This document shows positions 3,917 to 31,013 of a stretch of DNA of 38,311 nucleotides, one piece after another. The notes under the pieces were generated by a model, which saw only the letters and a program-made list of their open reading frames with translations, had not been told where the DNA came from and ran no database searches. The position numbers were made by a program, and so were the translations under genes. Every line of letters starts with the position of its first letter. The first letter of the stretch is position 1. The DNA is from a virus: positions 1-38,311 of IMG/VR virus record IMGVR_UViG_3300025154_000037; one strand, 5' to 3'.

Positions 3917-3968
3917 TCACACTGAGCTTGTCGAAGTGTGATGTGATGTTTCGACAAGCTCAACATGA
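3917..3968. repeat. Family A inverted pair
   Basis: Copy one has arms TCACACT/AGTGTGA (3917-3923, 3935-3941). Copy two lies in the opposite orientation with arms ATGTT/AACAT (3946-3966). Both have the 11-base core. Confidence 0.9.
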
Positions 3969-3973
3969 CATGA

Positions 3974-4174
3974 TTATTTTAATGGTGATTTACCGGTGAA
4001 GTATGCAACTATCCATACACCAACTGCCATTATTAAATTCCAGATGTTAGGATCGTTGCTTACCAAATATTCGTTTACAAATGTTGCTAGTGCAAAGATA
4101 AATCCGGCTATGTTTGTAACCGCATTTTTGTACTTCAATAGAAAGTCAACGAATTTTTTTAATGTGTTTAGCAT
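3974..4174 (-). CDS. Holin-like two-helix membrane protein
   Basis: A 66-residue protein beginning MLNTLKKFVDFLLKYKNAV, with two hydrophobic segments (NIAGFIFALATFVNEYLV and LIMAVGVWIVAYFTG) and a short basic tail. This is the size and topology of a small phage holin. The start is set by AAGGAG seven bases upstream of the ATG. The frame stays open upstream to 4447, but that stretch is translated repeat DNA and is best treated as non-coding. It lies immediately downstream of the lysin gene on the same strand, so holin/lysin pairing is likely. Confidence 0.65.
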   Translation of the reverse strand: MLNTLKKFVDFLLKYKNAVTNIAGFIFALATFVNEYLVSNDPNIWNLIMAVGVWIVAYFTGKSPLK

Positions 4175-4443
4175 TGTGAACTCCTTTAGTTTAAGAATTA
4201 TTTGTTTACGCTTTTCGTATTTAATTTTTAATTTTTCATTTTGAATTTTCAATTCTTCAGCAAGATTTGGTAAATCGCCAATCGGCTCATCAAATATTTT
4301 TTTATCCGGGTCGCCGGTAAAGTGCTTGTCAACAGTACCCACCCCTTCCGTTCCCCTCCCAAGAGGGGAAGCTGTACGGTTGTCATGCTGAGCAGTGAGC
4401 TTGTCGAACTGTCGAAGCATGTCAGTCTGAGCTTGTCGAAGAC
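4175..4443 (-). other. Spacer of stacked repeats between lysin and holin
   Basis: The stretch holds a family B palindrome (4337-4377), nested and single family A hairpins (4384-4447) and a T-rich fragment (4205-4250) whose complement reads KIQNEKLKIKYEKRK. It stays open in the holin frame by chance. The middle part (HFTGDPDKKIFDEPIGDLPN) is not explained by repeats and could be a remnant of a coding region. Confidence 0.55.
4337..4377. repeat. Family B GC-rich palindrome
   Basis: The element has an ACCCACCCC leader followed by CCCCTCCC AA GAGGGG, an inverted repeat. It matches the copies at 450, 9535, 15085, 15701, 17114 and 24548. Confidence 0.85.
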
Positions 4444-4447
4444 TCAT
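4384..4447. repeat. Family A copy nested inside a family A copy, plus a further copy
   Basis: The outer arms CATGCT/AGCATG (4384-4389, 4416-4421) enclose a split core GAGC...GTCGA. The insert is a complete smaller copy, AGT + core + ACT (4394-4410). A separate copy with arms AGTCT/AGACT follows at about 4424-4444. Confidence 0.9.
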
Positions 4448-4899
4448 AAGTTGCCTCTTTTTTTTTCATCCATTAATAAATAAATAAGCTGCGACATCTT
4501 GCGTAAGTAATCGGGGTCTGTTGCATATTTGTAAGGATGTTCATTCTGCACTGCATTTATAAACTGAACCGGATCGGTGTAAGTAAATGCTTTAGGCCAT
4601 CTTTTTTTAAGAAGTGCGGCATGATCCTTAAAGCTATCCAAAGGTGAGGCATACTTTCTGAAGGTTTGTTTTATAGTAATTGTTTTATCACCTTCAAATT
4701 CATGTGTGGTTAAAACTTGTATTTCACCTTTCCAACTTTTACCCGCTTTAATACCAAAAAAATTATTACCGGGTGCATGCTGACCCCATCCACTTTCGAG
4801 CGCAGCTTGCGCCAGTGTAGCTAGTGCCGGCACACCGGTTTCTTTTTCGTTTTCTTCTGCGTAAGGCAGATAGTATTTGATGAATTCGTTTGGCTTCAT
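4444..4899 (-). CDS. Endolysin, GH73-type glucosaminidase
   Basis: A 151-residue single-domain peptidoglycan hydrolase. The motif LAQAALESGWG holds the catalytic glutamate (E35) typical of FlgJ-like/GH73 N-acetylglucosaminidases, followed by NNFFGIKAG, the conserved family signature. The later FRKYASPLDSFKDHAALLKK and YATDPDYLRKMSQLI are also characteristic. No signal peptide is visible, so release would depend on a holin; the holin-like gene follows. Its likely role is cleaving the glycan backbone at lysis. The ATG lies at the edge of a long hairpin repeat. Confidence 0.88.
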   Translation of the reverse strand: MKPNEFIKYYLPYAEENEKETGVPALATLAQAALESGWGQHAPGNNFFGIKAGKSWKGEIQVLTTHEFEGDKTITIKQTFRKYASPLDSFKDHAALLKKRWPKAFTYTDPVQFINAVQNEHPYKYATDPDYLRKMSQLIYLLMDEKKRGNL

Positions 4900-4903
4900 A
4901 CTT

Positions 4904-4986
4904 CGACACCTTTCGACAAGCTCTCCGAAAGGAGTCCTTTGGATAAGGTGACATTACGAATGTCATACTGAGCCTGTCGAAGTATG
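4904..4986. repeat. Family A long variant plus short copy
   Basis: Copy one has arms CACCTT/AAGGTG (4907-4912, 4945-4950), the core, and an extra module built on AAAGGA C TCCTTT (4924-4943). Copy two has arms CATACT/AGTATG (4964-4969, 4981-4986). Confidence 0.9.
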
Positions 4987-4998
4987 GCATTTAATTTT

Positions 4999-6855
4999 CT
5001 ATCCATTACCAACTCCATCATTCCAAGCTTTTTCTAGAGCGGGTGCAAGCTCACGTGCAATGGCATCCTTATCCATCCCAACAAAGCCGTACACATTAAC
5101 TACAATAGAGCGTGAGTTGTTAGTTACATTTTCATTTCGTATTGAAGAGGCAGAAGGCGGTGAGAGGGAACTCCCGCCAACTCCACCTCCACCCGATGAG
5201 CCTGGCTGCATCGAAGCGATTCTTGCTATGTTCGAAAGTCCAAAAGCAGTGGCAGCGGCGGCGGCGGCAATTGCAAGTCCGGGTCCTACAATAGGAATAC
5301 CAACCATTGCTTTATACGCTTCCACTGCAGAAGTATAAGTAGCAATACCGGCTTGAGCTATTGCATAAGCTTTATAAATACCAAACATTGTTTTGTTGGT
5401 ATTGCCGGAAAGCATTGCAAAGTTTTGAAGTGCCCCGCCGATGTTATCGTACATCTGCAAAGCGGCATCGGTTCTTAAAGCATAATTCATCAGCTCGGAT
5501 TCGGTTAGCTCAGCACTTAATGCAATTTGCGAATCATGTAAAAACTTTATTTGCTCCATCGAGAAGCCGCCGGGAATAGGCGCTGCTTGCTCTAATGGTT
5601 TTGCTTCATTAAGCTTATAAATTGTAAAAAGCTGAGTAAGCAGATAATCATTTATGGTTGATAATGCACCGGGAATTCTATCGTACTTGGCATGGTACTC
5701 TTCCGCTTGGGCAATAAGCCGCATTAGTTTTTCTTGCTGCGGATCTAAGCCAAGGGTGTTAATATCAAGCCGGAGTTTTTGGCCTATATTTTCCCATTGA
5801 TCGGCAAGTTTATTAACTTTATCATTTGTTACTGGTAAAACTGTATTATTAAATATTCCTTGTGCATTAACAATTTTTTCTAATTCACTTCTAGAATCTT
5901 GTAATGGTTTTAAAGTTCCCTCTAACGCAACCTTATATGTGGTGGCATCAATATATCCTTGCCTCAATAATTTATTTTGGAACTCCTGATCATTTATCAT
6001 ACTGCCCTTACCAAAATTCAAACCCGGAGCTATTTTCTTATATAATTCAATTATTTTAGGAATATTTTCGCCAAGATTCATTCCTTGAATAGAGGTAGAA
6101 ATATCATTTAATATTTCCAACAAGGGAGGTAAAACTTGAATAGCCAATCCCTCAGCAGTAGATTTAAGAGTAGTTAAACTATCATTAAATTTTTCAGCAC
6201 TTGCAGCCGTGCGTTCATCTATTTCTATCCCTAATCTTCTTGCCTCTTCTTGTAATTTATTAATCCCTTCAGCACCTTGATTTAAAAACGGAATCAATTC
6301 GGCTCCAGCTCTACCAAATATTGACATGGCTGTTGCAGTCTTTAATGTACCATCCCTCATCTTCGAAAATTTTTCAGCAATATCTATTAATATTTTATCC
6401 GAAGCTTTTAATCTACCAGTTGAATCCACCACCGAAATACCCAGAATATCAAACGCCTTTTTAGCTGTTTGTCCAGCACCTTGAGAAACTTCAAACATGT
6501 TTCTAGATAAGCGAGCTATACCTGTTTGTAATTCTTGAAACGAAACATCGGCAAGGTCTGCAGCATATTTTAAAGTTGACAATGCCTCGGTTGATATGCC
6601 GATTTTTTGAGCAGTCTTTCCAATTTCATCTGCAAAATCTATCTGACGTTTAATTGCGTAACCCATTGCAGTGCCAAAACCTATAATAGCAAGGGGACTG
6701 AAAGCAGTACTCAATAAGCTACCCATACCACCTAATTTGCCAGACAAACCACTTGTAACACGATCTAAATCAAGTACTTTTTTTTCAACACCGTTGATCG
6801 CTTTTACCGCGCCTTGGTTTTTGCCGTCTATTTCTATTTCAACTTTATTAGCCAA
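4999..6855 (-). CDS. Tail tape measure protein
   Basis: A 618-residue protein directly downstream of the frameshifted tail chaperone pair, the standard position for the tape measure. The N-terminus is helical and charged (VEIEIDGKNQGAVKAINGVEKKV), followed by a hydrophobic SPLAIIGFGTAMGYAIKRQ region and typical tape-measure text (DEIGKTAQKIGISTEALS). The C-terminal part has an Ala/Gly-rich membrane-like stretch (VGPGLAIAAAAAATAFGL) and a glycine-rich linker. At about 1.5 angstrom per residue the length suggests a tail near 90 nm (rule of thumb). The start is TTG behind AAAAGG. Confidence 0.88.
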   Translation of the reverse strand: MANKVEIEIDGKNQGAVKAINGVEKKVLDLDRVTSGLSGKLGGMGSLLSTAFSPLAIIGFGTAMGYAIKRQIDFADEIGKTAQKIGISTEALSTLKYAADLADVSFQELQTGIARLSRNMFEVSQGAGQTAKKAFDILGISVVDSTGRLKASDKILIDIAEKFSKMRDGTLKTATAMSIFGRAGAELIPFLNQGAEGINKLQEEARRLGIEIDERTAASAEKFNDSLTTLKSTAEGLAIQVLPPLLEILNDISTSIQGMNLGENIPKIIELYKKIAPGLNFGKGSMINDQEFQNKLLRQGYIDATTYKVALEGTLKPLQDSRSELEKIVNAQGIFNNTVLPVTNDKVNKLADQWENIGQKLRLDINTLGLDPQQEKLMRLIAQAEEYHAKYDRIPGALSTINDYLLTQLFTIYKLNEAKPLEQAAPIPGGFSMEQIKFLHDSQIALSAELTESELMNYALRTDAALQMYDNIGGALQNFAMLSGNTNKTMFGIYKAYAIAQAGIATYTSAVEAYKAMVGIPIVGPGLAIAAAAAATAFGLSNIARIASMQPGSSGGGGVGGSSLSPPSASSIRNENVTNNSRSIVVNVYGFVGMDKDAIARELAPALEKAWNDGVGNG

Positions 6856-6872
6856 ATGTTTTACCTTTTATT

Positions 6873-6926
6873 GTCATGGTGAGCTTGTCGAACCATGACG
6901 CCACACTTCGACAAGCTCAGTGTGAC
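6873..6926. repeat. Family A inverted pair
   Basis: Copy one has arms TCATGGT/ACCATGA (6874-6898). Copy two is inverted with arms CACACT/AGTGTG (6902-6924). The pair sits in the gap between the chaperone and tape measure genes. Confidence 0.92.
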
Positions 6927-6933
6927 AACACCC

Positions 6934-7616
6934 TTAATGTTTGTGTTTAATTTGTTTGTATTGAAATTCATTCATAGCATCTTTGAAAGCACCGAGATAT
7001 TGCCATTCTATAAGTGATAAGTCATCCATGTTAAAATGCATACCAGCTTTTTCTAGGTTGTAAATAAATATTGCAAACGTAAAGCGTGCATCGGGAATAA
7101 AATTTGTTTCATATTGTTTCTTAAGCAGTTCAATATATTCTTTCGGATACCCTACGGATTCGTATTCTTTTTGTTTTTCCGCGGTCCACCTATTTTCGAA
7201 CTGTTCGAACTCTTGGTAAAAAAACTTTTTAAGTCACCTTTATCATTCTTAAGTACAAAGTTTGGTTCGGCAAAAATTGTACGTGCAAAGGTTATAAGAA
7301 TATCGGCGGCAGTTTCTTTGAGTAATGACCGCCACCCGGCGTAATAGTTTTCATCTTCTTTATTGCTGGATATTTGCTTGCCGTCATAAACAAAACAATT
7401 TTCACCAAACCCAGTAATCTTTTCGAGCGCTAAGCTTATCTGCACCTCTTGTGCCTTTTCTGCATCGCGTGTTTCGGTGAGCGCTTGTAATACTAAACTG
7501 TTAAATTGTAAACGGTCCTTGGTTGTTGGTGTGCTATAGTAAATTAAAATTCGTGAACCGCTTGCATTATCGAAGATAAGCAGTTCGTTTTTTTCAGAAG
7601 TTTTAAGGTCTCTCAT
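6934..7616 (-). CDS. Tail assembly chaperone G-T fusion made by -1 frameshift
   Basis: Ribosomes starting at 7616 read 133 codons to the T TTT TTT site at 7224-7218 and, after a -1 slip, continue for 94 codons to the stop at 6934-6936. The product would be about 227 residues. The second frame reads YQEFEQFENRWTAEKQKEYE, then YPKEYIELLKKQYE, and ends YKQIKHKH. It has no start of its own, is protein-like throughout and occupies the region between G and the tape measure. This matches lambda G/GT, where the fusion chaperones tape measure and tube assembly. Confidence 0.85.
7152..7616 (-). CDS. Tail assembly chaperone (G-like, unshifted product)
   Basis: A 154-residue protein starting MRDLKTSEKNELLIFDNASG, behind GAGGGA. 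It lies between the tail tube region and the tape measure, as lambda G does. The last 21 codons after the slippery heptamer read as low-complexity Ser/Asn/Lys (SSNSSKIGGPRKNKKNTNP), consistent with the zero frame being a short tail while selection acts on the -1 frame. Confidence 0.8.
   Translation of the reverse strand: MRDLKTSEKNELLIFDNASGSRILIYYSTPTTKDRLQFNSLVLQALTETRDAEKAQEVQISLALEKITGFGENCFVYDGKQISSNKEDENYYAGWRSLLKETAADILITFARTIFAEPNFVLKNDKGDLKSFFTKSSNSSKIGGPRKNKKNTNP
7218..7224 (-). promoter_or_regulatory. Slippery heptamer for -1 programmed frameshift
   Basis: Seven T residues are read in the zero frame as T TTT TTT, an exact X XXY YYZ slippery sequence. Downstream in the -1 frame the sequence stays open for 94 codons. 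No clear pseudoknot was worked out by eye. Confidence 0.85.
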
Positions 7617-7655
7617 TTGTTCCCTCTCGGTTTTAAGTTATAATAATACTCCGCT

Positions 7656-7743
7656 CACATTTCGACAAGCTCAATGTAACACCACGCTTGTCAGTCTGAG
7701 CTTGCCTGCCACCCATTACTTTCGCCGTGGCAAGTCGAAGACT
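7656..7743. repeat. Family A copy plus nested-hairpin copy
   Basis: Copy one is CACATT + core + AATGTA (7656-7678). Copy two has arms CAGTCT/AGACT (7692-7697, 7739-7743). Its core is split as GAGC...GTCGA by an insert with TTGCC/GGCAA ends and an inner TGCCAC/GTGGCA stem. The next gene's stop codon lies at its edge. Confidence 0.88.
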
Positions 7744-8167
7744 AATAATAGCCCGCGATAATTGTAAAAAGATCATTGGCACCGGCTGCATCGGTACCAC
7801 CATCATTTGCATCAGTACCGTATTGTATTTTTATGTAACGTCTGAAAAAAAAGACTTCTTTAGGAGCCAATACATTATATTTACCCGCAACTACAATAAT
7901 CTTAAGTTCTGTTGATATAGAACCGCTGCCGGAATTGAAGTAAACTTTTTCCCAAGTAACATTATCCGGCGAAGTCCAAAATGTAAGTGTATCATTAGCA
8001 AGTGTATCCGGTGTGCTGATAGCAAGGAGGTGCATACTTTTAAGATCAACACCGGCAGAAGCGGAATCACCTACTGCAATGGAGTCCGGGAGTTCTTGGA
8101 AAAATTGAGCGCGGGCGGGAACGGAGAGTAAGAGTAGGAGAAAAAGTAAGAATTTATATTTTTTCAT
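7742..8167 (-). CDS. Exported protein in the tail module (signal peptide)
   Basis: A 141-residue protein. The chosen ATG at 8167 has AAAGGA seven bases upstream; the open frame extends further up only through a translated repeat. The first 21 residues form a textbook Sec signal peptide (KK, then a leucine-rich core, then PARAQ as cleavage region). The mature part is beta-rich with DSIAVGDSASAGVDLKSMH and TFWTSPDNVTWEKVYF, resembling surface or decoration proteins. It lies between the tube and chaperone genes, where a decoration or tube-associated protein might be expected. A signal peptide there is unusual. Function unknown. Confidence 0.7.
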   Translation of the reverse strand: MKKYKFLLFLLLLLSVPARAQFFQELPDSIAVGDSASAGVDLKSMHLLAISTPDTLANDTLTFWTSPDNVTWEKVYFNSGSGSISTELKIIVVAGKYNVLAPKEVFFFRRYIKIQYGTDANDGGTDAAGANDLFTIIAGYY

Positions 8168-8188
8168 TTGAGTTTCCTTTTTATTTTC

Positions 8189-8256
8189 GTCGTGAAAGGT
8201 GAAACGTGAATCGAAAGAAGTCTCACTTTTCATATTTTTACATTTCACGTTTTAAG
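8189..8256. repeat. Family C inverted repeat (GTGAAACGTGAA type)
   Basis: GTGAAAGGTGAAACGTGAA on one side and TTACATTTCACGTTTTAAG on the other form an interrupted palindrome between the tail tube and exported-protein genes. A similar element lies at 28276-28353. Confidence 0.65.
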
Positions 8257-9196
8257 TAAACGTTATTACAATTGCATTGTTACCGGCTGCAAGTGTTGGA
8301 TTTATATTAAATGATAAATCCCATGTTAAAACATTTTCGCGGCTGCCGTATTTAGGAGCTTCGAGAGTTACACCGGTTACAGCTAATGTTACAATGTTGC
8401 CGGCTCCGCCGCTTACTGCAGCGGCAATATTTGCTTGTGTGATCGCATTGAAAAGAGTCCATGGATTCAAACCAGATAATGCAACCGTTTCGGGATTCAT
8501 AGATCCTTTCGAATCTCTATCACTTACAAAGTAGCGTGCAATGCCGGATGTTGCATTTGCACTATCGCGTCTGCTTACAGTGTTCCCGATATCAAGCATA
8601 AGCTCTGTAATTACCAATGTCGCAACGCTGTTATAAGTAAAACCAGCTGCTTTGAAAATAAGAGGTGCAACAGTTGCATAAGTGGGATCCGGAAAAGCAA
8701 CATTAGATATGTGTGCACTTGCATATATACCGGTGAATTCCCAATCCACTTTCATTATGTCCCGGGTTTTAAGCGATATTTTGAAAGTACCAACACAACC
8801 GGAAATTTTATGTACATTACCATCGGCCCAAAACCATAGTGTAACAGATTCACTTTCAAAAACTGAATTAGGTGTATAAGCTGCACTTGTAACTGCCACA
8901 AGCGCTTCGGTCATGTTGCAAGCTCTGAATAAGCATCCTTCTCTAGGAGCAGTACCGGCAGTACCACTGCCTTTAAGTTCGGTTGAGAAGTTTAGTTTTA
9001 ATCCTGTACCCACTGCAATAGGAGCAATCTTACCAAAGTAAGCAAGGGGAATTGCTCTTTGCACCGGTTCGTTAATAACTTCAAAAGTCGGGTCGCCGGC
9101 AGTAACTAAAGCATTTGCAGCTTCGGTTGGTGTAGGATCTGTGCCATACTCGGTTTCGAGCTTTGCAAGTATTAAGTGTTTGTTAGCGCGTTCCAT
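8252..9196 (-). CDS. Major tail tube protein
   Basis: A 314-residue protein starting MERANKHLILAKLETEYGTD, which matches the N-terminal style of the siphophage tail tube family (short leader, then PTPTEAANALVTAGDPTFEV). It has alternating beta-strand character (LKLNFSTELKGSGTAG, MKVDWEFTGIYAS, LTWDLSFNINPTLAAGNN) and the YGSRENVLTW ending common to tube proteins that close the ring. It sits between the tail terminator and the chaperones in lambda-like order. The start is supported by AAAGGAT upstream. It is flanked upstream by a family A pair, as expected if hairpins delimit a highly expressed message (inference). Confidence 0.85.
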   Translation of the reverse strand: MERANKHLILAKLETEYGTDPTPTEAANALVTAGDPTFEVINEPVQRAIPLAYFGKIAPIAVGTGLKLNFSTELKGSGTAGTAPREGCLFRACNMTEALVAVTSAAYTPNSVFESESVTLWFWADGNVHKISGCVGTFKISLKTRDIMKVDWEFTGIYASAHISNVAFPDPTYATVAPLIFKAAGFTYNSVATLVITELMLDIGNTVSRRDSANATSGIARYFVSDRDSKGSMNPETVALSGLNPWTLFNAITQANIAAAVSGGAGNIVTLAVTGVTLEAPKYGSRENVLTWDLSFNINPTLAAGNNAIVITFT

Positions 9197-9217
9197 AATT
9201 TTTATCCTTTTTTATTG

Positions 9218-9271
9218 TCACATTGAGCTTGTCGAAATGTGACGTCATGCTTCGACAAGCTCAGCATGACA
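9218..9271. repeat. Family A inverted pair
   Basis: Copy one has arms TCACATT/AATGTGA (9218-9242). Copy two is inverted with arms TCATGCT/AGCATGA (9245-9269). Arms are perfect in both copies. Confidence 0.95.
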
Positions 9272-9277
9272 CTTAAA

Positions 9278-9520
9278 TTATTTTTTAATTTCTTCTTTAT
9301 CTTCATCTTCGTTTTTATCTTCATCTTTATCTTCACTCTTCGACAAGCTCAGAGTGACATCATCATGCTGTCCAAAGGACTCCCGGAGAGCCTGACGAAG
9401 CATCATTGCTTCATCTTCAAGGTTAGGAATAAGCTTGCCATCTTTGCGGATTATGTAGGACCCACAAGGCATATTGTTCTGAATGTTTATGTCTAAATGA
9501 TTGCTAATATTTGTTTCCAT
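9278..9520 (-). CDS. Small acidic protein partly made of repeat DNA
   Basis: An 80-residue protein starting METNISNHLDINIQ behind AAGGA. The first half (PCGSYIIRKDGKLIPNLEDE) looks like a genuine small phage protein. The second half reads through two family A repeats in frame (RQALRESFGQHD and VTLSLSKSE) and ends in a charged DKDEDKNEDEDKEE tract. It lies between the tail terminator and tube genes. Function unknown. Confidence 0.6.
   Translation of the reverse strand: METNISNHLDINIQNNMPCGSYIIRKDGKLIPNLEDEAMMLRQALRESFGQHDDVTLSLSKSEDKDEDKNEDEDKEEIKK
9334..9404. repeat. Family A pair inside a coding sequence
   Basis: Copy one has arms CACTCT/AGAGTG (9334-9356). Copy two is a long variant with arms CATGCT/AGCAT (9364-9369, 9399-9403) and the extra GTCCAAAGGACTCCCGGA module. 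Both are translated in frame within the 80-residue gene. Confidence 0.88.
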
Positions 9521-9534
9521 GTTTGTCCTTCTGA

Positions 9535-9583
9535 ACCCCACCCCGTCCCTCCCCTTTATTAAAGGGGAGGGTGAGGGAGAGGT
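9535..9583. repeat. Family B palindrome, terminator-like
   Basis: CCTCCCCTTT ATT AAAGGGGAGG is a perfect 10-bp stem in the gap between the tail terminator and small acidic protein genes. No T-run follows on either strand, so a transcript-stabilising or processing hairpin is as likely as a terminator. Confidence 0.85.
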
Positions 9584-10048
9584 TTACCCTGTGCTCCACG
9601 CATTTTTACGATATTGCACTGTGATCGAGATTGTTAAGTCAGCAATTTTATTACCGAACTGATCTGTTTTGTTGCGCTGTGAACCGCGGTATTGTGTAGT
9701 AAATGCAGTTCCGCTCCAAGTAAGATCGGTATTTATTGATTTAAGTATATCAGCTTTCATTTTACGTATGTCCGCAACAGCAGCACCTTTAGCAATTACA
9801 TCTATGTCAATATCAAGTCCAATATCATGCAGTGTACCGGCACTTTCAAGCTCTTCTAATAGTGTATCATTCGTTTCGCGTATGTTAATAATTTTTGTAA
9901 AGTCTTTATCGAAAGAAGCATTGCCCGGCATGTTATCTACAACTTTATCGAAGGTAGTGTAATAGGTGCTGCCACCGGCAACAATAGCAGCAAGCCGCGT
10001 TTTTATTGCCTCGATTATTGTGTGCTCTTTTATATCGGGTAGTGCCAT
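9584..10048 (-). CDS. Tail terminator-like protein
   Basis: A 154-residue protein starting MALPDIKEHTIIEAIKTRLA, a typical opening for tail completion/terminator proteins that cap the tail tube. The central DIGLDIDIDVIAKGAAVADIRKM and the C-terminal DLTWSGTAFTTQYRGS...LTISITVQYRKNAWSTG fit the gpU/terminator alpha-beta fold. It lies between the head-tail joiner and the tube gene. The assignment is by order and sequence style. The upstream sequence is a family A pair with a short gap containing AAAGGAT. Confidence 0.65.
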   Translation of the reverse strand: MALPDIKEHTIIEAIKTRLAAIVAGGSTYYTTFDKVVDNMPGNASFDKDFTKIINIRETNDTLLEELESAGTLHDIGLDIDIDVIAKGAAVADIRKMKADILKSINTDLTWSGTAFTTQYRGSQRNKTDQFGNKIADLTISITVQYRKNAWSTG

Positions 10049-10067
10049 TGTATCCTTTTATTATATG

Positions 10068-10142
10068 TCACACTGTCCAAAGGACTCCTTTCGGAGAGCT
10101 TGTCGAAGTGTGACACCATGTTTCGACAAGCTCAACATGACA
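10068..10142. repeat. Family A pair, first copy long variant
   Basis: Copy one has arms TCACACT/AGTGTGA (10068-10074, 10107-10113) with the GTCCAAAGGACTCCTTTCGGA module before the core. Copy two is inverted with arms CATGTT/AACATG (10117-10139). Confidence 0.93.
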
Positions 10143-10451
10143 CTACGGCGAAGCATTTTCGCTTAAATATAAATATGTCATTCCAAGTCCATCGGGAATA
10201 ATTTTAATTACATAATATGTAACAGTTTCAATCACAATAGTATCGCCTTGATCACCACCGGAAGCATCGGCATCTTTACACATAAAAACTGGATCGGTAG
10301 TTTCAATAACTCCGCCGGCAGTCATAATTTCCATACCCGGCTTAAAAAGTATACCGTTAAAATCTGTAGCCGACCACGATGGATTTGCCGACACTGCAAA
10401 TTCGTTAGTGTCTATAAATGCGGAGTTGAATGTGCTGTCAATAAGTGTCAT
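10143..10451 (-). CDS. Head-tail joining / head closure-like protein
   Basis: A 102-residue protein between the small head protein and the tail terminator. It is beta-rich (FNGILFKPGMEIMTAGGVIE, VETVTYYVIKIIPDG) and ends YLYLSENASP. Size and position match lambda gpFII-type connectors that close the portal vertex and receive the tail. No diagnostic motif was seen, so the name rests on position and length. Confidence 0.55.
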   Translation of the reverse strand: MTLIDSTFNSAFIDTNEFAVSANPSWSATDFNGILFKPGMEIMTAGGVIETTDPVFMCKDADASGGDQGDTIVIETVTYYVIKIIPDGLGMTYLYLSENASP

Positions 10452-10476
10452 TTATTTTTCTATGCTAACTCTACGC

Positions 10477-10557
10477 CATCTTTCGACAAGCTCTCCGAAA
10501 GGAGTCCTTTGGACAAGATGACAGTACGCTTGTCACACTGAGCCTGTCGAAGTGTGA
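10477..10557. repeat. Family A pair, first copy long variant
   Basis: Copy one has arms CATCTT/AAGATG (10477-10482, 10515-10520), the core and the AAAGGA/TCCTTT module. Copy two is inverted with arms TCACACT/AGTGTGA (10533-10557). Confidence 0.93.
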
Positions 10558-10566
10558 ATCGTAGTA

Positions 10567-10881
10567 TTATCTTTTTGAAAGAAGTTTTTCCACAAGGTCT
10601 AGAAGCTTGTCTAACTTTGCACTAAGCTTAGTGACCGGGTCAACAAACTTTTCATCACCCGTTTTAGGAGCTTTTCTTTTTGCATTGTCCGGAACAACCG
10701 CTTTAAGATCGCGGGTGCAATTGCCGGCAAGCACTTCCAGCTTATCTAAGCCGGATATTTTATATTTTTCACCGGGGTAAAATATTTTAGCTATTAATGC
10801 GCCCGATGGTTTTGCTCGATGCTGTTTAAGAACTAGAACTTCTTCAACTTCATCTACACGAGGAGTCTTTCCCTCTGCCAT
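10567..10881 (-). CDS. Small basic head-region protein
   Basis: A 104-residue protein. The ATG at 10881 (MAEGKTPRVDEVEEVLVLKQ) is chosen because GGAG lies eight bases upstream; an upstream ATG at 10935 lacks a site. The sequence has a small beta-like domain (KPSGALIAKIFYPGEKYKIS) and a basic, leucine-heptad C-terminus (LSAKLDKLLDLVEKLLSKR) likely to form a coiled coil. It follows the capsid gene in the slot of lambda gpFI or a decoration protein. Function not established. Confidence 0.6.
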   Translation of the reverse strand: MAEGKTPRVDEVEEVLVLKQHRAKPSGALIAKIFYPGEKYKISGLDKLEVLAGNCTRDLKAVVPDNAKRKAPKTGDEKFVDPVTKLSAKLDKLLDLVEKLLSKR

Positions 10882-10953
10882 GATTTTATCTCCATTTATA
10901 ATTAATGATTGAATATTTTTTACACTTATAGTCAACAGAACCTCATTTTACGA

Positions 10954-11033
10954 CATCTTTCGACAAGCTCAAGATGACAATACGAATGTCATACTGAGCA
11001 ATCCCCGCCAAAAGCGGGGATTAGTCGAAGTAT
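10954..11033. repeat. Family A pair, second copy with nested hairpin
   Basis: Copy one has arms CATCTT/AAGATG (10954-10976). Copy two has arms ATACT/AGTAT (10991-10995, 11029-11033). Its core is split as GAGC...GTCGA by a hairpin with a perfect AATCCCCGC/GCGGGGATT stem (11000-11023). The pair lies directly after the capsid stop codon. Confidence 0.93.
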
Positions 11034-12388
11034 TAGCTAACGTCTGCTGCTACGGAGAATGCAGTAACTCTTGAGAACAATACGTCCATTGAGGTGAATG
11101 CAGTGATTACAATATCACCGGTATCATCTTTGTACGGATTTACAAGCAGATCAATTATACCCCAATCGATCATCCAAGCTTCCGAGCCGTCACCGTAGAT
11201 CAAAGTGCTTGCGGGTGATTGTTCGGATATAATCGGAGGAGCAGAAATTCTGCTTGCATAATCGAACAGCATTCCGAGGTAGCCGCCGGCAACAACCGGG
11301 CGTGTCATTAAAACACCGGCAACAAGTGCGTTCATTACAAATCGTAAGTTATCTGTGTTGATGTTATTTGTTTTTACATCAGTCCAGAATTCAATTAAAG
11401 CATCCAAATCGAATGAAGCACCAACAACAGAACCAATGCCGGAGGTAATTAAGAGTCCATCTGGTTCGTAAGTACCGGCACCGTTAATAAGCGCAGAGTC
11501 TCTTCCGGTAATAACGTTTTTTAGAATGTCATCAATTATCAAAGCTTCGAGAGCGGGTACGGATTGCAATGCAGCTTGACGAGTGTACTTCATTGATGCC
11601 CATCCGTTATGCGGCGTAGCTGTTAATTGCCCGATAACAAAATCAGTAGCAGTTCCGGTTCCACTTTCAGCAACCCAATGGAAAGTTCCGGTTGATGTTT
11701 TCTTAGGAACGGAAATATTCTGCTTTGCACCGGAGATCATTCGAACACCCCACTGACCGGCAACGCCAAGATTTCTCAGCACATCAATGAATTCGTTGAA
11801 CATGTTTTCAGTGCCGATCAAGTAAGTGGCATCACTTACGCTAACGCCATCGGAAGCACGCTTGCCGAAATCACCGCCATAATTTTTCATGTGATTGCGC
11901 ACTGCAGCTTTCATCACTTGTGAATGGCGCATAACATCGGGGTTCTTAAAGAAGTCAAGCGGAAGCACCATACCATTTGCTTTGAATCCCGGTATCATGT
12001 TTGCTTGTTTTGTAGCTTCGTCAATAGCTTCTTTTTCGGCACCGGCTTTGAATTTATCCCAAGCGGTTAAATTACCACCTCGTAGTTCAACCATAGCAGC
12101 GAGTGCACGGCCGATGCTGAGCGCTTTAATTCCTTTTTTGCTCATGCCAAGATCGGTAACGGCAGTTTGGGTAATATCTTCATTTTTAAGATTGCCCCAA
12201 ACATGCTGACGGAATTTATCAACCGACCAGCTTTCGGTTTTTGCCTGAGCAGCAAATTTTGCAAGCTCTTCCTTTCCGCCTTTGTAAAGCTTTTGACTTA
12301 CAAGCGCACCGGCTATTTCATCGATGCCTTGAATTCTTTCCCTCTCTTCTTTCTGAATTTGCTCCAGAGTTTTTTCGTTCTCGTTCAT
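11033..12388 (-). CDS. Candidate internally initiated capsid protein (in-frame nested start)
   Basis: An in-frame ATG at 12388 (residue 232 of the fusion, MNENEKTLEQIQKEERERIQ) is preceded by AAGGAG at a six-base spacing, one of the best ribosome sites in the window. The product would be 451 residues: scaffold-like helix plus full capsid domain, without protease. This would give a surplus of capsid over protease, comparable in principle to lambda C/Nu3 nested starts. Confidence 0.7.
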   Translation of the reverse strand: MNENEKTLEQIQKEERERIQGIDEIAGALVSQKLYKGGKEELAKFAAQAKTESWSVDKFRQHVWGNLKNEDITQTAVTDLGMSKKGIKALSIGRALAAMVELRGGNLTAWDKFKAGAEKEAIDEATKQANMIPGFKANGMVLPLDFFKNPDVMRHSQVMKAAVRNHMKNYGGDFGKRASDGVSVSDATYLIGTENMFNEFIDVLRNLGVAGQWGVRMISGAKQNISVPKKTSTGTFHWVAESGTGTATDFVIGQLTATPHNGWASMKYTRQAALQSVPALEALIIDDILKNVITGRDSALINGAGTYEPDGLLITSGIGSVVGASFDLDALIEFWTDVKTNNINTDNLRFVMNALVAGVLMTRPVVAGGYLGMLFDYASRISAPPIISEQSPASTLIYGDGSEAWMIDWGIIDLLVNPYKDDTGDIVITAFTSMDVLFSRVTAFSVAADVS

Positions 12389-13081
12389 TTGAGTCTCCTT
12401 GTTTAGTTTTATTTTAAGTTCAGATTTAATTGATTTAATATCGTTAGCGAATTCATTTAATTTTGTTTGAAGATCGGGATCCTCTGATTTGATACTTGGC
12501 TGTAAATCGGAACGGAATTTAGATGCGCTGTCTGCACCAATAGGAACCAGCGATCCTTCTTTAATTTCCCACTTGGTTCTGATCAACATTCGCAAACCAT
12601 CATCAAAATTATTTTCGAATGTTTTGCCGTTAATTTCTTGTTTCTTTCCCGGCATAATTTCAACAGTAAATTCTTTTCCAAATGTTTTATATCCGGCGGA
12701 TAGGTCCGTCAAATGTCCCTCCTCCACTTGCGATATTTCATCTTCGGCTTTGCTCCAGAAATAAACATCACCAACAAGATCGGTTTTTTCCACGCGCAAG
12801 TTTCTTATTGAACCTTTAACATCACTAGTTGACCAGCGTGAATGAGTATCAAGCAAAGGCACTTGTTTTGTATCGGGCAAAACAACACCATCCATTAAAA
12901 GCACTTCGCGAACAAGCTCCCACCGTTCCCAATCGGCAACAATAGCCGGCTGTTCAGTAGTTATCACTGCTTCCACTATAACGGACTTGCCGTCTTTTTT
13001 AAATGTTTCGGGAACAGCCCTTGCGGTTCGTGACTCCCATCCCGTAAAATCTTTGTTTGTGTTTAGGTTTCCATCTTTCAT
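11033..13081 (-). CDS. Prohead protease fused to major capsid protein
   Basis: A 682-residue fusion. Residues of about 15-200 look like an HK97-type prohead protease: VPLLDTHSR holds the likely catalytic His (H80) and HLTDLSAGYKTFG the Ser (S128). A charged helical linker (about 205-300, with EKTLEQIQKEERERIQ) resembles the HK97 delta/scaffold domain. The rest reads as an HK97-fold capsid protein (SVSDATYLIGTENMFNEFID, NISVPKKTSTGTFHWVAES, FTSMDVLFSRVTAFSV). The protease would mature the shell by removing the delta region. A strong internal ribosome site inside the linker suggests the capsid part is also made alone. Hairpin repeats flank both ends. Confidence 0.88.
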   Translation of the reverse strand: MKDGNLNTNKDFTGWESRTARAVPETFKKDGKSVIVEAVITTEQPAIVADWERWELVREVLLMDGVVLPDTKQVPLLDTHSRWSTSDVKGSIRNLRVEKTDLVGDVYFWSKAEDEISQVEEGHLTDLSAGYKTFGKEFTVEIMPGKKQEINGKTFENNFDDGLRMLIRTKWEIKEGSLVPIGADSASKFRSDLQPSIKSEDPDLQTKLNEFANDIKSIKSELKIKLNKETQMNENEKTLEQIQKEERERIQGIDEIAGALVSQKLYKGGKEELAKFAAQAKTESWSVDKFRQHVWGNLKNEDITQTAVTDLGMSKKGIKALSIGRALAAMVELRGGNLTAWDKFKAGAEKEAIDEATKQANMIPGFKANGMVLPLDFFKNPDVMRHSQVMKAAVRNHMKNYGGDFGKRASDGVSVSDATYLIGTENMFNEFIDVLRNLGVAGQWGVRMISGAKQNISVPKKTSTGTFHWVAESGTGTATDFVIGQLTATPHNGWASMKYTRQAALQSVPALEALIIDDILKNVITGRDSALINGAGTYEPDGLLITSGIGSVVGASFDLDALIEFWTDVKTNNINTDNLRFVMNALVAGVLMTRPVVAGGYLGMLFDYASRISAPPIISEQSPASTLIYGDGSEAWMIDWGIIDLLVNPYKDDTGDIVITAFTSMDVLFSRVTAFSVAADVS

Positions 13082-13102
13082 AAGTCACCTTCTTTTTCAT
13101 TG

Positions 13103-13155
13103 TCACACTGAGCTTGTCGAAGTGTGACGTCATGCTTCGACAAGCTCAGCATGAC
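13103..13155. repeat. Family A inverted pair
   Basis: Copy one has arms TCACACT/AGTGTGA (13103-13127). Copy two is inverted with arms TCATGCT/AGCATGA (13130-13154). The pair lies between the portal stop and the capsid gene start. Confidence 0.95.
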
Positions 13156-13162
13156 ATTATTA

Positions 13163-15082
13163 TTATGAATGAACATTTATAGCATGGGCCTTTCCATTGC
13201 CATTTCCGCCAGAAGCGGTATTATTATTTTTATTATCTTCTTCGCCAGAATTATTATTTTGGTTTACTATAGGTTTAGGATCGTGAGCAGTTCCTTCCAA
13301 ACCAGCACCTAAAACATTAACTATCATGCGTGCTTCATCGGCAGTTAATAACGGCTGTTGAGAATTTACCGGTAAGTATAATCTCTGTAACATCGAAGAT
13401 ATTTTTTCCATATTTTCTTTTTTATTTTTATCCTTGTCGCCTACTGTTGATTCATCTTTATCTTTATCTTTATCTTCCGCATCATCCTCACTTGCACCTA
13501 TTGGAGTTGTGGGGTACTTTGTCATAAATAAAGTATAAAATTCATCTAACCCTTTGTCTTTAAACATTTGGCGCTCTGCAGCAATGTTATCCAGATGCTC
13601 TTCAAGATCTATTCCTTGCTCACCTAATACTTGCTCAAATGTTTTTTGAAAGCTCTGCACCGCCATTATGTTAGCTTCGCGTTCTTCTTTTGGATTTGTG
13701 TATTCCCACGAACGACCATAGAATAATGGCTGGTTAAATTTTTCAAGCTTATCAAGTACCGGGAGTGTTTTACCGGATGGTAAAATAAATTTTCCGGCAA
13801 GTGCAGCCATTTCGAGCCATCCCAGCCGGTCGCCATAAATATGGTTTAAGTAATTTTCGACAACCCAATTCTGGCCTTCTACATAAGCATCGCGTTCACT
13901 TTGTTTTTCAAGCTTCCCGCTGTGCCAAGTAACTGCCTCATAGTTATTCGACATGGTTGAGAAGCCAATATCACCACCGGCAGATATACTGCGCAGCATG
14001 TGCTTCTGGAAATCGCCTTGCAGCTGATGAGGATAACTTGATTCGAGGTTTGTTACTTGATAACCGTCTTTAACTTTTAGGAATTCACCGTTGGCAAGCT
14101 GCATAATCCAATCGCCGCTATCATCTTTCTGCTGAACTTGCATACCGGGAATACTATTTGCACCCATTACATTGGGCTGTTTGGATATCATACCGGGTAC
14201 ACGTGCGGAAACATTTGCACGCATTAGGGACGATTCCTCGAATTGATAAAGCATTCGTAAGCGGATACCAACCGGCGCAAAAAGTGTAACGCCGCGCAAT
14301 TGATGGGGGAGTTCTTTTACATAGAGATGAATAATTTTATCTGCTTCAATTCGCTCATAATTGTTTGACCAGCTATCGCCATAATCCACAAATTGTTTTG
14401 GGTTACCTTTGCGGAACCAGTAAGCTACTTTGCGCCATTCGTTATCAACTTCAATTCCCATAATGATATGGTTGCCGTTGTAATCATGATTAAGAGTCCA
14501 AGCGCAGCGTTCAGCGGGAATAGTTTGTGTGGTAAATCCGAATGGATTAAACTTTGGTCCCGAGAGTTTTTTAATAAAAACTTCACCATCAATCATAACA
14601 GCACTAAGTAATGAGCCGCAATGCGCTCTTAGCGATTCATCGCCTTCGAGCGTGATGTATTTATTTTTAGAATACTGCCACCATTGCTCGTTGATTATTC
14701 CGTTAGCAAGTTTATCTTTTATAAATTTATAACCGCCGTTTTGTATTCCGAATTCACCGGCATTGTTACGCAGTACAAATCCTTTTGGTCCTACAATACC
14801 TTTGCGTTTTTCGGTAACAAGTTTTTTTGCGTAGGGATCGTTTTGGTAAAGTTCGCGTGCGCGTGCAATTAAACGAGAGCCTCCAACTTTTAGGTCGTAA
14901 TTAAAATCACGGACAAAGGAAAGCCAGTCGGCAGTAAGGCGATCCATCTTAGCCATGTTGAAGGAACGCACCCCTTCACTCTTCGACAAGCTCAGAGTGA
15001 CATCGCTTAGCTTTTCATCGAATTCTTTTTTCAAGGATTCGATTTGTAAATTGTGATATTTTTGTGTTACTATGCCTAGCAT
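13163..15082 (-). CDS. Portal protein (lambda-type)
   Basis: A 639-residue protein of the lambda-family portal type. Residues of about 60-120 read RLIARARELYQNDPYAKKLV and GIVGPKGFVLR, the characteristic opening. The core has LHVYVKELPHQLRGVTLFAP-like text (IIHLYVKELPHQLRG) and DIGFSTMSNNYEAVTW (equivalent of the YSSxR region), followed by the helical barrel. The C-terminus is low-complexity and charged (EDKDKDKDES, NNNNSGEEDNKNNN). A family A repeat is translated in the N-terminal 40 residues (VTLSLSKSE), so the virion form may begin at the Met of NMAKMDRLTADW. A family B repeat lies just before the ATG. Confidence 0.87.
   Translation of the reverse strand: MLGIVTQKYHNLQIESLKKEFDEKLSDVTLSLSKSEGVRSFNMAKMDRLTADWLSFVRDFNYDLKVGGSRLIARARELYQNDPYAKKLVTEKRKGIVGPKGFVLRNNAGEFGIQNGGYKFIKDKLANGIINEQWWQYSKNKYITLEGDESLRAHCGSLLSAVMIDGEVFIKKLSGPKFNPFGFTTQTIPAERCAWTLNHDYNGNHIIMGIEVDNEWRKVAYWFRKGNPKQFVDYGDSWSNNYERIEADKIIHLYVKELPHQLRGVTLFAPVGIRLRMLYQFEESSLMRANVSARVPGMISKQPNVMGANSIPGMQVQQKDDSGDWIMQLANGEFLKVKDGYQVTNLESSYPHQLQGDFQKHMLRSISAGGDIGFSTMSNNYEAVTWHSGKLEKQSERDAYVEGQNWVVENYLNHIYGDRLGWLEMAALAGKFILPSGKTLPVLDKLEKFNQPLFYGRSWEYTNPKEEREANIMAVQSFQKTFEQVLGEQGIDLEEHLDNIAAERQMFKDKGLDEFYTLFMTKYPTTPIGASEDDAEDKDKDKDESTVGDKDKNKKENMEKISSMLQRLYLPVNSQQPLLTADEARMIVNVLGAGLEGTAHDPKPIVNQNNNSGEEDNKNNNTASGGNGNGKAHAINVHS
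14977..15002. repeat. Family A repeat translated inside the portal gene
   Basis: Arms CACTCT/AGAGTG around TCGACAAGCTC. The portal frame reads it as VTLSLSKSE, about 30 residues from the N-terminus. Confidence 0.9.
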
Positions 15083-15084
15083 TT

Positions 15085-15120
15085 ACCCACCCCTCGCCCC
15101 TCTTAAGAGGGGAAGAGTAC
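15085..15120. repeat. Family B palindrome directly 5' of the portal start
   Basis: GCCCCTCTTAAGAGGGG forms a short perfect stem, and the GGGTGGGT end (minus strand) touches the portal ATG at 15082. Confidence 0.85.
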
Positions 15121-15130
15121 GTTTTTTTGA

Positions 15131-15649
15131 TTATGTTTTTTTACCGTAGATAAAAAACATTACCCAAAGTTTATTAGGATCAGTAGCATCATTGCCAGCT
15201 GTTGCACCGCGAGTAATTATTTTTACTGAGTTATATCCGCGTATAGCAGCGCTTGTAAGTAATGTTGCATTGTCAACTAATAATCTTTCCACTCCTTCGG
15301 CGGCTGCAGCAACATTTAATGTTACAGTGTATGTTAATGCAGTAGCCGTATAAGCATCATCGGCAACGTTAGTATTTACTCCTTCTACCCCGAGGTAGCA
15401 ATCGAGCGAATCAATATCAATTTCACCTTCAACAAATAACGATATTTGAATTGAATCAATTGCTGTAAATCCTAATTTTTGTGCATATCTTCCAAAATGG
15501 AAATAGCCAGTTTCATCAACACTGTTAGCAACAGTGCCAAAGTTTATTATGTAGGGATCGGCTGCTTGCTGTGCGGGTGTTTTGATGTTCAAGAATAAAC
15601 TTGAAAATGCAATTACCATAATTGCGAAGAGAGAGATGAATCGTTTCAT
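15131..15649 (-). CDS. Exported protein in the head module (signal peptide)
   Basis: A 172-residue protein starting MKRFISLFAIMVIAFSSLFL behind AAGGAG, so the start at 15649 is clear. The first 30 or so residues form a Sec-type signal peptide ending near TPAQQA. The mature part is beta-rich and repetitive in style (DSIQISLFVEGEIDIDSLDC, VTLNVAAAAEGVERLL, NKLWVMFFIYGKK). It is encoded between the gpW-like connector and the portal. Head proteins are normally cytoplasmic, so an exported or membrane-held product here is unusual. Function unknown. Confidence 0.7.
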   Translation of the reverse strand: MKRFISLFAIMVIAFSSLFLNIKTPAQQAADPYIINFGTVANSVDETGYFHFGRYAQKLGFTAIDSIQISLFVEGEIDIDSLDCYLGVEGVNTNVADDAYTATALTYTVTLNVAAAAEGVERLLVDNATLLTSAAIRGYNSVKIITRGATAGNDATDPNKLWVMFFIYGKKT

Positions 15650-15700
15650 TTTTGTACTCCTTGTGAATTTTAAATTGTTGTTAGATATCAAATGTTATTT

Positions 15701-15738
15701 ACCCACCCTTTCCGTTCCCCTCCAAGGAGGGGATTAGA
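15701..15738. repeat. Family B palindrome
   Basis: ACCCACCC leader and a CCCCTCC AA GGAGGGG stem in the gap between the exported-protein and gpW-like genes. Confidence 0.85.
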
Positions 15739-15750
15739 CACGGAGTTTTA

Positions 15751-16305
15751 TTATTCAAATTGTATTAGAACACGTCCGCCGGGACTTTGTCCGGCATCAA
15801 TTAAATTTTTTTCTTCTTCGTAGTTAACTAATCCTTGATAGTATTCTTTTGCTTTTATTAATTCTTCTAGTGTTAAATATTGTAATGCACGCGAACCTTG
15901 CGGTGTAGAAATAGAAATGCTCATCTGCGCTTTTGTTGCCCGGCTTTCTATTGCAGCTTCCAATGCTTCGAGCACGGTGCGTGCGTGGGATCTGTAATCG
16001 TAAGTAGTGGCAGCAACTAAATCCGGGAATACTTCAATTTCAAATCTTGGCTGATATTGTTTTGTACCATCGGTATGCTGGTAGTATGGCTGCATCATAT
16101 ACTTGCCGGCAGTGTATGTAGCAGTAATAGCGGGAGTAAGTGTTACATCGTGATCATCGCCATTGGCAACTGAGTCAATATCAAATTTTCCAGCAGAATT
16201 GATGATACGCGCTTTGTAGGTCCAGCCCGCAGAGGCAAGGTAATCGGAGTTGGATTCAGTCCACTCGACTTTATCACCGGCGTAAATTGTTTTGGGTTCG
16301 TTCAT
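15751..16305 (-). CDS. gpW-like head-tail connector with N-terminal beta domain
   Basis: A 184-residue protein. Residues of about 1-100 look like a beta-sandwich (IYAGDKVEWTESNSDYLASA, TATYTAGKYMMQPYYQHTDG). Residues of about 105-165 resemble gpW-type connectors: HARTVLEALEAAIESRATKA, then SRALQYLTLEELIKAKEYY. In lambda, gpW sits between terminase and portal and plugs the filled head; the position here (just upstream of the portal region) agrees. The ATG lies at the edge of a family A hairpin and has no clear ribosome site. Confidence 0.6.
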   Translation of the reverse strand: MNEPKTIYAGDKVEWTESNSDYLASAGWTYKARIINSAGKFDIDSVANGDDHDVTLTPAITATYTAGKYMMQPYYQHTDGTKQYQPRFEIEVFPDLVAATTYDYRSHARTVLEALEAAIESRATKAQMSISISTPQGSRALQYLTLEELIKAKEYYQGLVNYEEEKNLIDAGQSPGGRVLIQFE

Positions 16306-16337
16306 GCTTCGACATCTTTCGACAAGCTCAAGATGAC
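16303..16337. repeat. Family A hairpin at a start codon
   Basis: Arms CATCTT/AAGATG (16313-16318, 16330-16335) around the core, with a GCTTCGA extension reaching the gpW-like gene's ATG at 16305. Confidence 0.9.
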
Positions 16338-16498
16338 ACGCTCGCTTTTTTTATTAAACTTGGGATTGTGAATTAATTCTATACAATGATAAGTTTTAGG
16401 AAGGAAATGATAAAGTGGACAAAATTATGAAGGGGGAGGAGGTTAGTAAGCAATGGGCAGTAGGCAATAAGCAAATTATTTATTATAGATATTCCGTT

Positions 16499-17113: not shown

Positions 17114-17517
17114 AACCCACCCCTTCCGTTCCCCTCCAAGGAGGGGATATTGTTACGTAATGGATTCCATAAAAATATTTTTTGATTAAATTTTATTGAG
17201 AGCGGGGATATGCCTGGAATAATATCAAATTTTTGTAAGTTATTATACACAGTGCGTTCCGTTGTAAATTTTATTTTAGCAAGTTCGTTCACTTTTAGTC
17301 CGTATATTTTTTTAAATCTTTTAAGCCGTTTATATTCTCTCTCATAATCTTTGCGCGGCAGTGTATTAATATTAATAAGTTCAAGCTTAAGTTCAAGGTT
17401 ACAATTCAGCACACAATAATTTATATCATTTTTTTCAAAAGTGTAACCGCACAGTTCTTTTTTCCATACACTAAGCGGCTGGAGTTTTTGGCCATCGGTT
17501 AGAAGAGGATTCCTCAC
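17110..17517 (-). CDS. Small HTH-like protein at the top of the late operon
   Basis: A 135-residue basic protein, start GTG overlapping the previous stop. Residues of about 55-100 (DYEREYKRLKRFKKIYGLKV, NELAKIKFTTERTVYNNLQK) look like a helix-turn-helix, so DNA binding is plausible. The C-terminal residues (IPSLEGNGRGGL) are read from a family B repeat. It is coupled to the genes on both sides by 4-base overlaps. No family recognised; a late regulator is one option. Confidence 0.5.
   Translation of the reverse strand: MRNPLLTDGQKLQPLSVWKKELCGYTFEKNDINYCVLNCNLELKLELININTLPRKDYEREYKRLKRFKKIYGLKVNELAKIKFTTERTVYNNLQKFDIIPGISPLSIKFNQKIFLWNPLRNNIPSLEGNGRGGL
17114..17157. repeat. Family B palindrome at a gene overlap
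   Basis: CCCCTCC AA GGAGGGG stem and ACCCACCCC leader. On the minus strand GGGGTGGGTT ends at the GTG start of the gpZ-like gene, and the element is translated at the end of the upstream gene. Confidence 0.85.
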
Positions 17518-24547: not shown

Positions 24548-24589
24548 AACCCACCCCTTCGTCCCCTCCCAAGAGGGGATATTGTACGA
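24548..24589. repeat. Family B palindrome directly 5' of a start codon
   Basis: CCCCTCCC AA GAGGGG stem. On the minus strand the element ends GGGGTGGGTTA immediately before the PolX-like gene's ATG. Confidence 0.85.
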
Positions 24590-29783: not shown

Positions 29784-29935
29784 ACTCAACACTAATTGCA
29801 ATACTTGCCATACTGGTTGTAGTAATTTTGATCAGCCGTGATATTGCGCTGTGGTACTTCAAAATAAATTTCAGAGCAAAACAAAATGATGAGATTATAA
29901 AACTGCTAACAGAAATAAAAGATGGCAAGCGTTGA
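29780..29935 (+). CDS. Small single-pass membrane protein (51 residues)
   Basis: Starts MNSTLIAILAILVVVILISR, a strong membrane segment, then a polar tail (KQNDEIIKLLTEIKDGKR). The ATG overlaps the HTH gene stop (ATGA) and its end overlaps the integrase start by 14 bases, so the three genes appear translationally linked. Confidence 0.6.
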   Translation: MNSTLIAILAILVVVILISRDIALWYFKINFRAKQNDEIIKLLTEIKDGKR

Positions 29936-30929: not shown

Positions 30930-30930
30930 T

Positions 30931-30954
30931 GTCATTCTGAGCTTGTCGAAGAAC
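30931..30954. repeat. Family A copy after the integrase
   Basis: Intact core (30939-30949) with short arms TTCT/AGAA. It lies directly behind the integrase stop codon. Confidence 0.8.
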
Positions 30955-31013
30955 AATATCGAGTCAAAAGTCGAGTCAACGCCAAAAATGATAAATGCAA
31001 TAGGTAAAAATGA

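Follow-up and report, generated by a model that had tools for sequence, protein, structure and literature searches.

A conserved internal start in a fused protease-scaffold-capsid gene of a phage genome suggests a nested two-product organization

The window, that is, the whole stretch of 38,311 nucleotides analysed here (IMG/VR record IMGVR_UViG_3300025154_000037), carries on its minus strand a fused gene (11033-13081) in which a protease, a scaffold (delta) region, and an HK97-fold major capsid protein (MCP) follow one another in a single open frame, a layout that it shares with fusions of the PHROG 617 kind. The gene encodes a 682-aa protein of about 75 kDa, hereafter P0001, and its own start, an ATG at 13081-13079, is preceded by the Shine-Dalgarno (SD) sequence AAGGTGA (13085-13091; duplex energy -6.0 kcal/mol). 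Directly upstream on the same strand lies the portal protein gene (13163-15082), recognized by profile matches. The window begins and ends with an exact 127-nt direct terminal repeat (1-127 and 38185-38311), which suggests a complete, circularly closed phage genome, and an integrase gene is present on the plus strand (29922-30929). Dispersed repeats around GAGCTTGTCGAA/TTCGACAAGCTC, with 9 and 14 exact copies, occur at 3924-16354, 26741-26776, and 30927-30962, often as inverted pairs between genes (e.g. 13095-13159, immediately before the start of the fused capsid gene); they resemble repeats known from certain bacterial chromosomes. Another palindromic repeat, CCCCTCCCAAGAGGGG-like (family D9), is likewise dispersed and is found at 461-487, 4352-4378, 15716-15742, 17130-17156, and 24562-24588.

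The assignment of P0001 is based on profile searches and on an AlphaFold2 model built on 67 sequences (mean pLDDT 79). PHROG 617 ("major head protein") matches residues 35-681 (E 4.3e-56), phrog_4523 ("major head and protease protein") residues 16-307, and PF05065 residues 450-675 (E 1.1e-16). The NCBIfam model NF045541, "prohead protease/major capsid protein fusion", matches residues 31-303 only (E 5.5e-27), and because the score of 94.6 bits lies below the curated cut-off of 525 over the whole model, P0001 was not placed in that family. The protease domain (residues 35-191; 12509-12979) is modelled as a strand-rich domain at 35-190 followed by a helix at 202-230, and contains the candidate catalytic residues H80 and S128, which are invariant in 67/67 aligned sequences and which we take to have catalytic roles. 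At E <= 1, PF04586 gave no match to P0001; relatives of P0001 do match this model and TIGR01543, both of which describe HK97 prohead proteases. Neither PF00574 nor NF045540 detected a ClpP-like domain in P0001, which is therefore not a member of the Gifsy-2 type. The scaffold region (residues 232-423; 11813-12388) is helical with a pI of 9.0, and it runs into a stretch modelled as disordered (residues 400-429, pLDDT < 50; 11795-11884), a probable maturation cleavage zone. The HK97-fold capsid domain (residues 430-682; 11036-11794) is supported by PF05065, by the alignment of the 268-aa R4C capsid chain, which begins at residue 424 (the mature R4C capsid matching 424-673), and by the best PDB fold match of the model, the R4C phage capsid 8gta (rank 1, E 1.3e-16). 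Together, the domain evidence gives the order protease, scaffold region, probable cleavage zone, and capsid domain.

Within this frame, the preliminary description had pointed to an internal AAGGAG followed, after six bases, by an in-frame ATG at residue 232, and the site is present as described: AAGGAG (12400-12395), ACTCAA (12394-12389), and ATG (12388-12386), all on the minus strand. Its placement at the beginning of a scaffold-like helix also holds in the model, in which pLDDT drops below 50 at residues 226-234 and helices start at 237, so that codon 232 lies in a modelled gap between the protease and the scaffold region. The predicted nested N-terminus is MNENEK, and the conserved start would give a scaffold-MCP product of 451 aa (11036-12388); the computed masses are 75.0 kDa for the full product, 48.9 kDa for the scaffold-capsid product, and about 27.7 kDa for the mature subunit. 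The internal SD pairs with the anti-SD at -8.5 kcal/mol as compared with -6.0 for the gene's own start, ranks third in strength among the 32 window start sites that were scored, and sits in RNA that local folding predicts to be nearly unstructured. Two copies of the motif AAGGAGN6ATG are present in the window, where 0.27 would be expected, and 3/100 shuffles also reach two; by itself, therefore, the site is only mildly unlikely, and its weight rests on the comparison with relatives.

For this comparison, relatives were drawn from nine phage records and one plasmid record (from 60 and 9 matching records), from 80 of 469 viral-contig and 80 of 150 genome-contig relatives, and from two near-identical contigs, the genome-contig hosts being, by record titles, Proteobacteria classes, Campylobacterota, Nitrospirota, Cyanobacteria, Verrucomicrobia, Fibrobacter, and others. 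Twelve of the loci L001-L173 and the window were left out, namely L003, which is the window itself, L002 and L074, whose frames are broken, and nine that a contig end cuts short (L053, L054, L056, L066, L073, L084, L089, L097, and L162), leaving 162 full-length fused frames with the window included. Only L001 and L002 are close relatives of the window, and both match it almost exactly and give no independent support; L001, a copy of the window, was counted separately among the 162 and removed in the identity-filtered sets. In L002 (3001-5027), 22 nt are deleted downstream of the internal start, within the scaffold part, which breaks the capsid frame and may be either an artefact or a genuine defect. 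L074 was considered as a split gene (frames of 183 and 411 aa) and rejected; its linker and part of its scaffold region are missing, and it was set aside because a deletion or assembly error is indistinguishable from a real split. No DNA-level relatives were found in the phage collection, and a portal-protein scan of viral contigs recovered only the already known contig.

The preliminary description had named the absence of the internal SD or ATG from relatives with the same fusion as the observation that would speak against it. What was found is an in-frame linker ATG in 159/162 fusions and, by a custom exact-match rule, one with an SD of at least 4 nt in 143/162 (at least 5 nt in 86 and at least 6 in 36); by source, SDs of at least 4 nt were present in 9/10 records, 63/72 viral contigs, and 69/78 genome contigs, plus the window and L001. 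Counting GTG as well as ATG raises the number to 146/162. In L107 and L149, which have no SD-bearing ATG, AAGGAG is followed after 6 nt, at the same spacing, by GTG instead, and the best-scoring linker site of L015 is also of the GTG type. The remaining 16/162 have a weak SD or none, L052 and L040 for example having a linker Met without an SD. In six of the nine contig-end fragments the end of the protease could be located by a motif search; all six have an in-frame linker ATG, and three of these (L066, L084, and L097) have an SD of at least 4 nt; truncated L089 has a linker Met without one. ATGs with an SD of at least 5 nt are concentrated in the linker (0.0088 per codon, as compared with 0.0004 for the protease, 0.0009 for the scaffold region, and 0.0011 for the capsid part), whereas Met is no more frequent there than elsewhere in the gene (2.2% versus 2.4%). 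With tighter bounds, the in-frame counts at SDs of at least 4, 5, and 6 nt were 141, 84, and 36 (141 rather than 143 because the linker bounds and spacing rule were slightly tighter), as compared with 34, 4, and 0 in frame +1, none in frame +2, and means of 42.9, 12.8, and 3.2 (maxima 55, 25, and 8 in 100 shuffles) in codon-shuffled linkers. The excess persists among 55 representatives below 50% identity (48, 31, and 13 observed versus 15.9, 5.1, and 1.5 shuffled) and in a further filtered set of 19 (16, 13, and 3 versus 4.5, 1.4, and 0.4). Ser, Pro, or Thr, residues common after Met at real N-termini, follows the linker Met in 81/143 cases.

The conservation extends to the nucleotides. When synonymous codons were resampled according to the usage of each gene, leaving the protein unchanged (300 draws), the 105 linkers with a single ATG had an SD of at least 4 nt in 91 cases, against 55.9 +/- 4.0 expected and a maximum of 66, whereas control Mets showed no excess, either in the protease (51/328 versus 67.4 expected) or downstream (252/1707 versus 283.6). 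Codon -4, from which the initial G of GGAG comes in the site of the window, is 94% identical at same-residue sites (n = 138) versus 50% gene-wide over 301 related pairs, which are not independent, so that it is the contrast between positions and not the number of comparisons that counts. These synonymous tests indicate, for the genes compared, nucleotide-level selection on the internal SD, and with a conserved SD and an in-frame start codon where the two domains join, the gene is probably a nested dual-product gene of the lambda C/Nu3 kind.

A similar arrangement is found in a second family of fusions. In the genes of F10, MD8, and Gifsy-2, a ClpP-type protease (PF00574) is joined to a capsid of family PF25209, as shown by profile search with F10. 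We collected 87 such loci (L174-L260), the viral-contig part being the best 80 of 435, and 84 of them have full frames; all 84 possess an ATG with an SD of at least 4 nt at the position of F10 residue 220, just past the ClpP domain. Among representatives below 90% identity, the site is present with identical spacing in 18/18, as compared with a synonymous expectation of 9.4 and a maximum of 15 in 1000 draws, and codon -5, which always ends in G, is identical in 57/57 same-residue comparisons against a background of 46%. Eight further records were taken from 136 matches. In L267-L271, an HK97-type protease is combined with an F10-type capsid, and a linker Met is present in 5/5, three with an SD of at least 5 nt and two with GGGGA only. 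L273 and L274, in which the protease model finds no match, carry AAGG and AGGT at their junction Mets, and phage Epona (L272) has separate genes. In a Helicobacter prophage (L266), AAGGAG precedes M183. Compared with L174 and P0001, the genes L267-L271 thus show protease and capsid modules of different families newly combined at the internal-start junction, as if the internal start marked the swap point.

The most probable reading of these data, to which we assign a probability of roughly 0.83, is that the gene is a nested in-frame two-product capsid gene yielding a 75-kDa fusion and a 49-kDa scaffold-MCP, in line with the earlier suggestion that one gene makes both fusion and capsid subunits, which the relatives and the synonymous-codon tests support at the level of sequence. 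The observed basis for this is the site itself, its family-wide conservation, the synonymous selection on the SD, and the modelled domain boundaries; from these we infer that ribosomes use the start, as well as the ratio of the two products, their co-assembly, and the order of cleavage. Initiation at ATG 13081 would give the protease-scaffold-MCP fusion, and initiation at the internal AAGGAG/ATG (codon 232) would give the scaffold-MCP lacking the protease. Both products would co-assemble via their common scaffold and capsid domains, so that some protease copies would be carried into the prohead, where the protease may release both its own domain and the scaffold region by cutting near residues 400-429, so that a shell subunit of about 28 kDa remains. 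A fusion devoid of an internal start, on the other hand, would force protease and capsid protein to a ratio of 1:1.

That all capsid subunits arise as the full fusion, each then losing its protease by cleavage, with the internal start yielding a minor by-product, is unlikely, although the gene's own SD is of comparable strength across the family: among 157 genes compared, the internal SD is stronger in 86, weaker in 68, and equal in 3 (medians -6.3 and -6.0), so that an internal SD stronger than the own start throughout the family was not borne out, the two being about equal, and the claim is for two products and not for a measured excess of capsid protein. In the window, however, the internal SD is the stronger of the two, as stated above, the selection on the internal SD would be left unexplained, and in HK97 proheads, according to passages of PMC12749128, about 60 proteases are present alongside 415 MCP. 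It is also conceivable, but improbable, that the site is a relict of once-separate genes fused by loss of a stop codon, the old MCP start persisting functionless. Unfused neighbours, which also count in favour of the two-product reading, do show the expected precursor layout: in phage Epona (L272, 900-960) the protease and capsid genes are separate and the stop codon TAG of the former overlaps with the SD of the latter (TAGGAGG), plausibly a pre-fusion state, and in phi39:1 separate protease and MCP genes overlap at TAATG, the capsid gene encoding 439 aa, similar in length to the nested product (451 aa). A relict would decay, yet the SD persists at synonymous positions and among lineages that share less than 50% identity, while the remaining linker is poorly conserved. 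Comparably improbable is that the SD-like motif, lying exactly at the modelled domain boundary, serves as a translational pause for protease folding before scaffold synthesis, with the ATG incidental. Pausing at SD-like motifs has been proposed in bacteria, but a pause requires no start codon at a fixed spacing, and the ATG is nearly universal and is replaced by GTG behind an intact AAGGAG in L107 and L149. Chance, which the 3/100 window shuffles with two such sites might suggest, is refuted for practical purposes by the frame and shuffle controls, the synonymous test, and the codon identity across the family.

Both elements of the two-product reading have precedents, fused protease-capsid genes and internal starts for scaffold within the protease gene being already known. 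Lambda C/Nu3 contains a nested in-frame start, and in herpesviruses, too, a nested scaffold is made from within the protease gene. In passages of PMC8508860, the lambda protease and scaffold share one gene, the HK97 protease and MCP are encoded separately, and MD8 has one gene for protease, scaffold, and MCP, whereas PMC4378225 describes for Mu and PaMx73 an in-frame internal start in the protease gene that makes the scaffold. Like the window's gene, lambda C/Nu3 and Mu I/Z have an in-frame start within the protease gene, but their nested product is the scaffold only and the MCP gene is separate, whereas the nested product of the window would be the capsid protein together with its scaffold domain. 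The window shares with HK97 gp4/gp5 a probable HK97-type protease, the delta scaffold domain, and the HK97-fold MCP, and the nested product would correspond to the MCP precursor of HK97 and other phages in which protease and delta-domain MCP are separate. The fusions of NF045541 and of PHROG 617 and 4523 (VP882, PPpW-3, R4C, RcRhea, and PT1) have the same gene order and fused layout as P0001 but, unlike the two-product reading of the window, are annotated as a single long product, and the C-terminal half of NF045541 matches the F10-type MCP, whereas that of the window belongs to PF05065. The tripartite Gifsy-2/MD8/F10 gene (NF045540) has an internal SD-ATG at the junction, and P0001 would resemble it in its working without being a member; its ClpP-type protease (PF00574) and PF25209 MCP, as opposed to the probable HK97-type protease and different MCP family of the window, imply that at least the joining of the protease occurred separately. 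None of the 10 annotated loci examined (nine phage, one plasmid record) has a nested start annotated, and no internal start making the MCP itself was described in the literature searched, which left outside its coverage Effantin et al. 2010 on Gifsy-2, where one might be contained; passages of PMC10276861, PMC8538268, PMC8508860, PMC4378225, and PMC12749128 include none, and the text of the R4C structure paper contains neither "protease" nor any word beginning with "cleav".

Fusing a protease to the most abundant protein of the virion creates a dosage problem, to which a conserved internal start offers a simple and directly testable answer. It is likely that tailed-phage protease-capsid fusions are as a rule two-product genes, in which an internal start kept at the junction sets protease dosage and marks the point of module exchange, and that this applies across the module sets S78 with PF05065, S78 with the F10-type MCP, and ClpP with PF25209. 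If so, separate genes can fuse without loss of independent expression, the annotated capsid N-terminus would be corrected across a large group of phages and prophages, and many annotated phages would have a primary capsid protein about 200-250 residues shorter than recorded.
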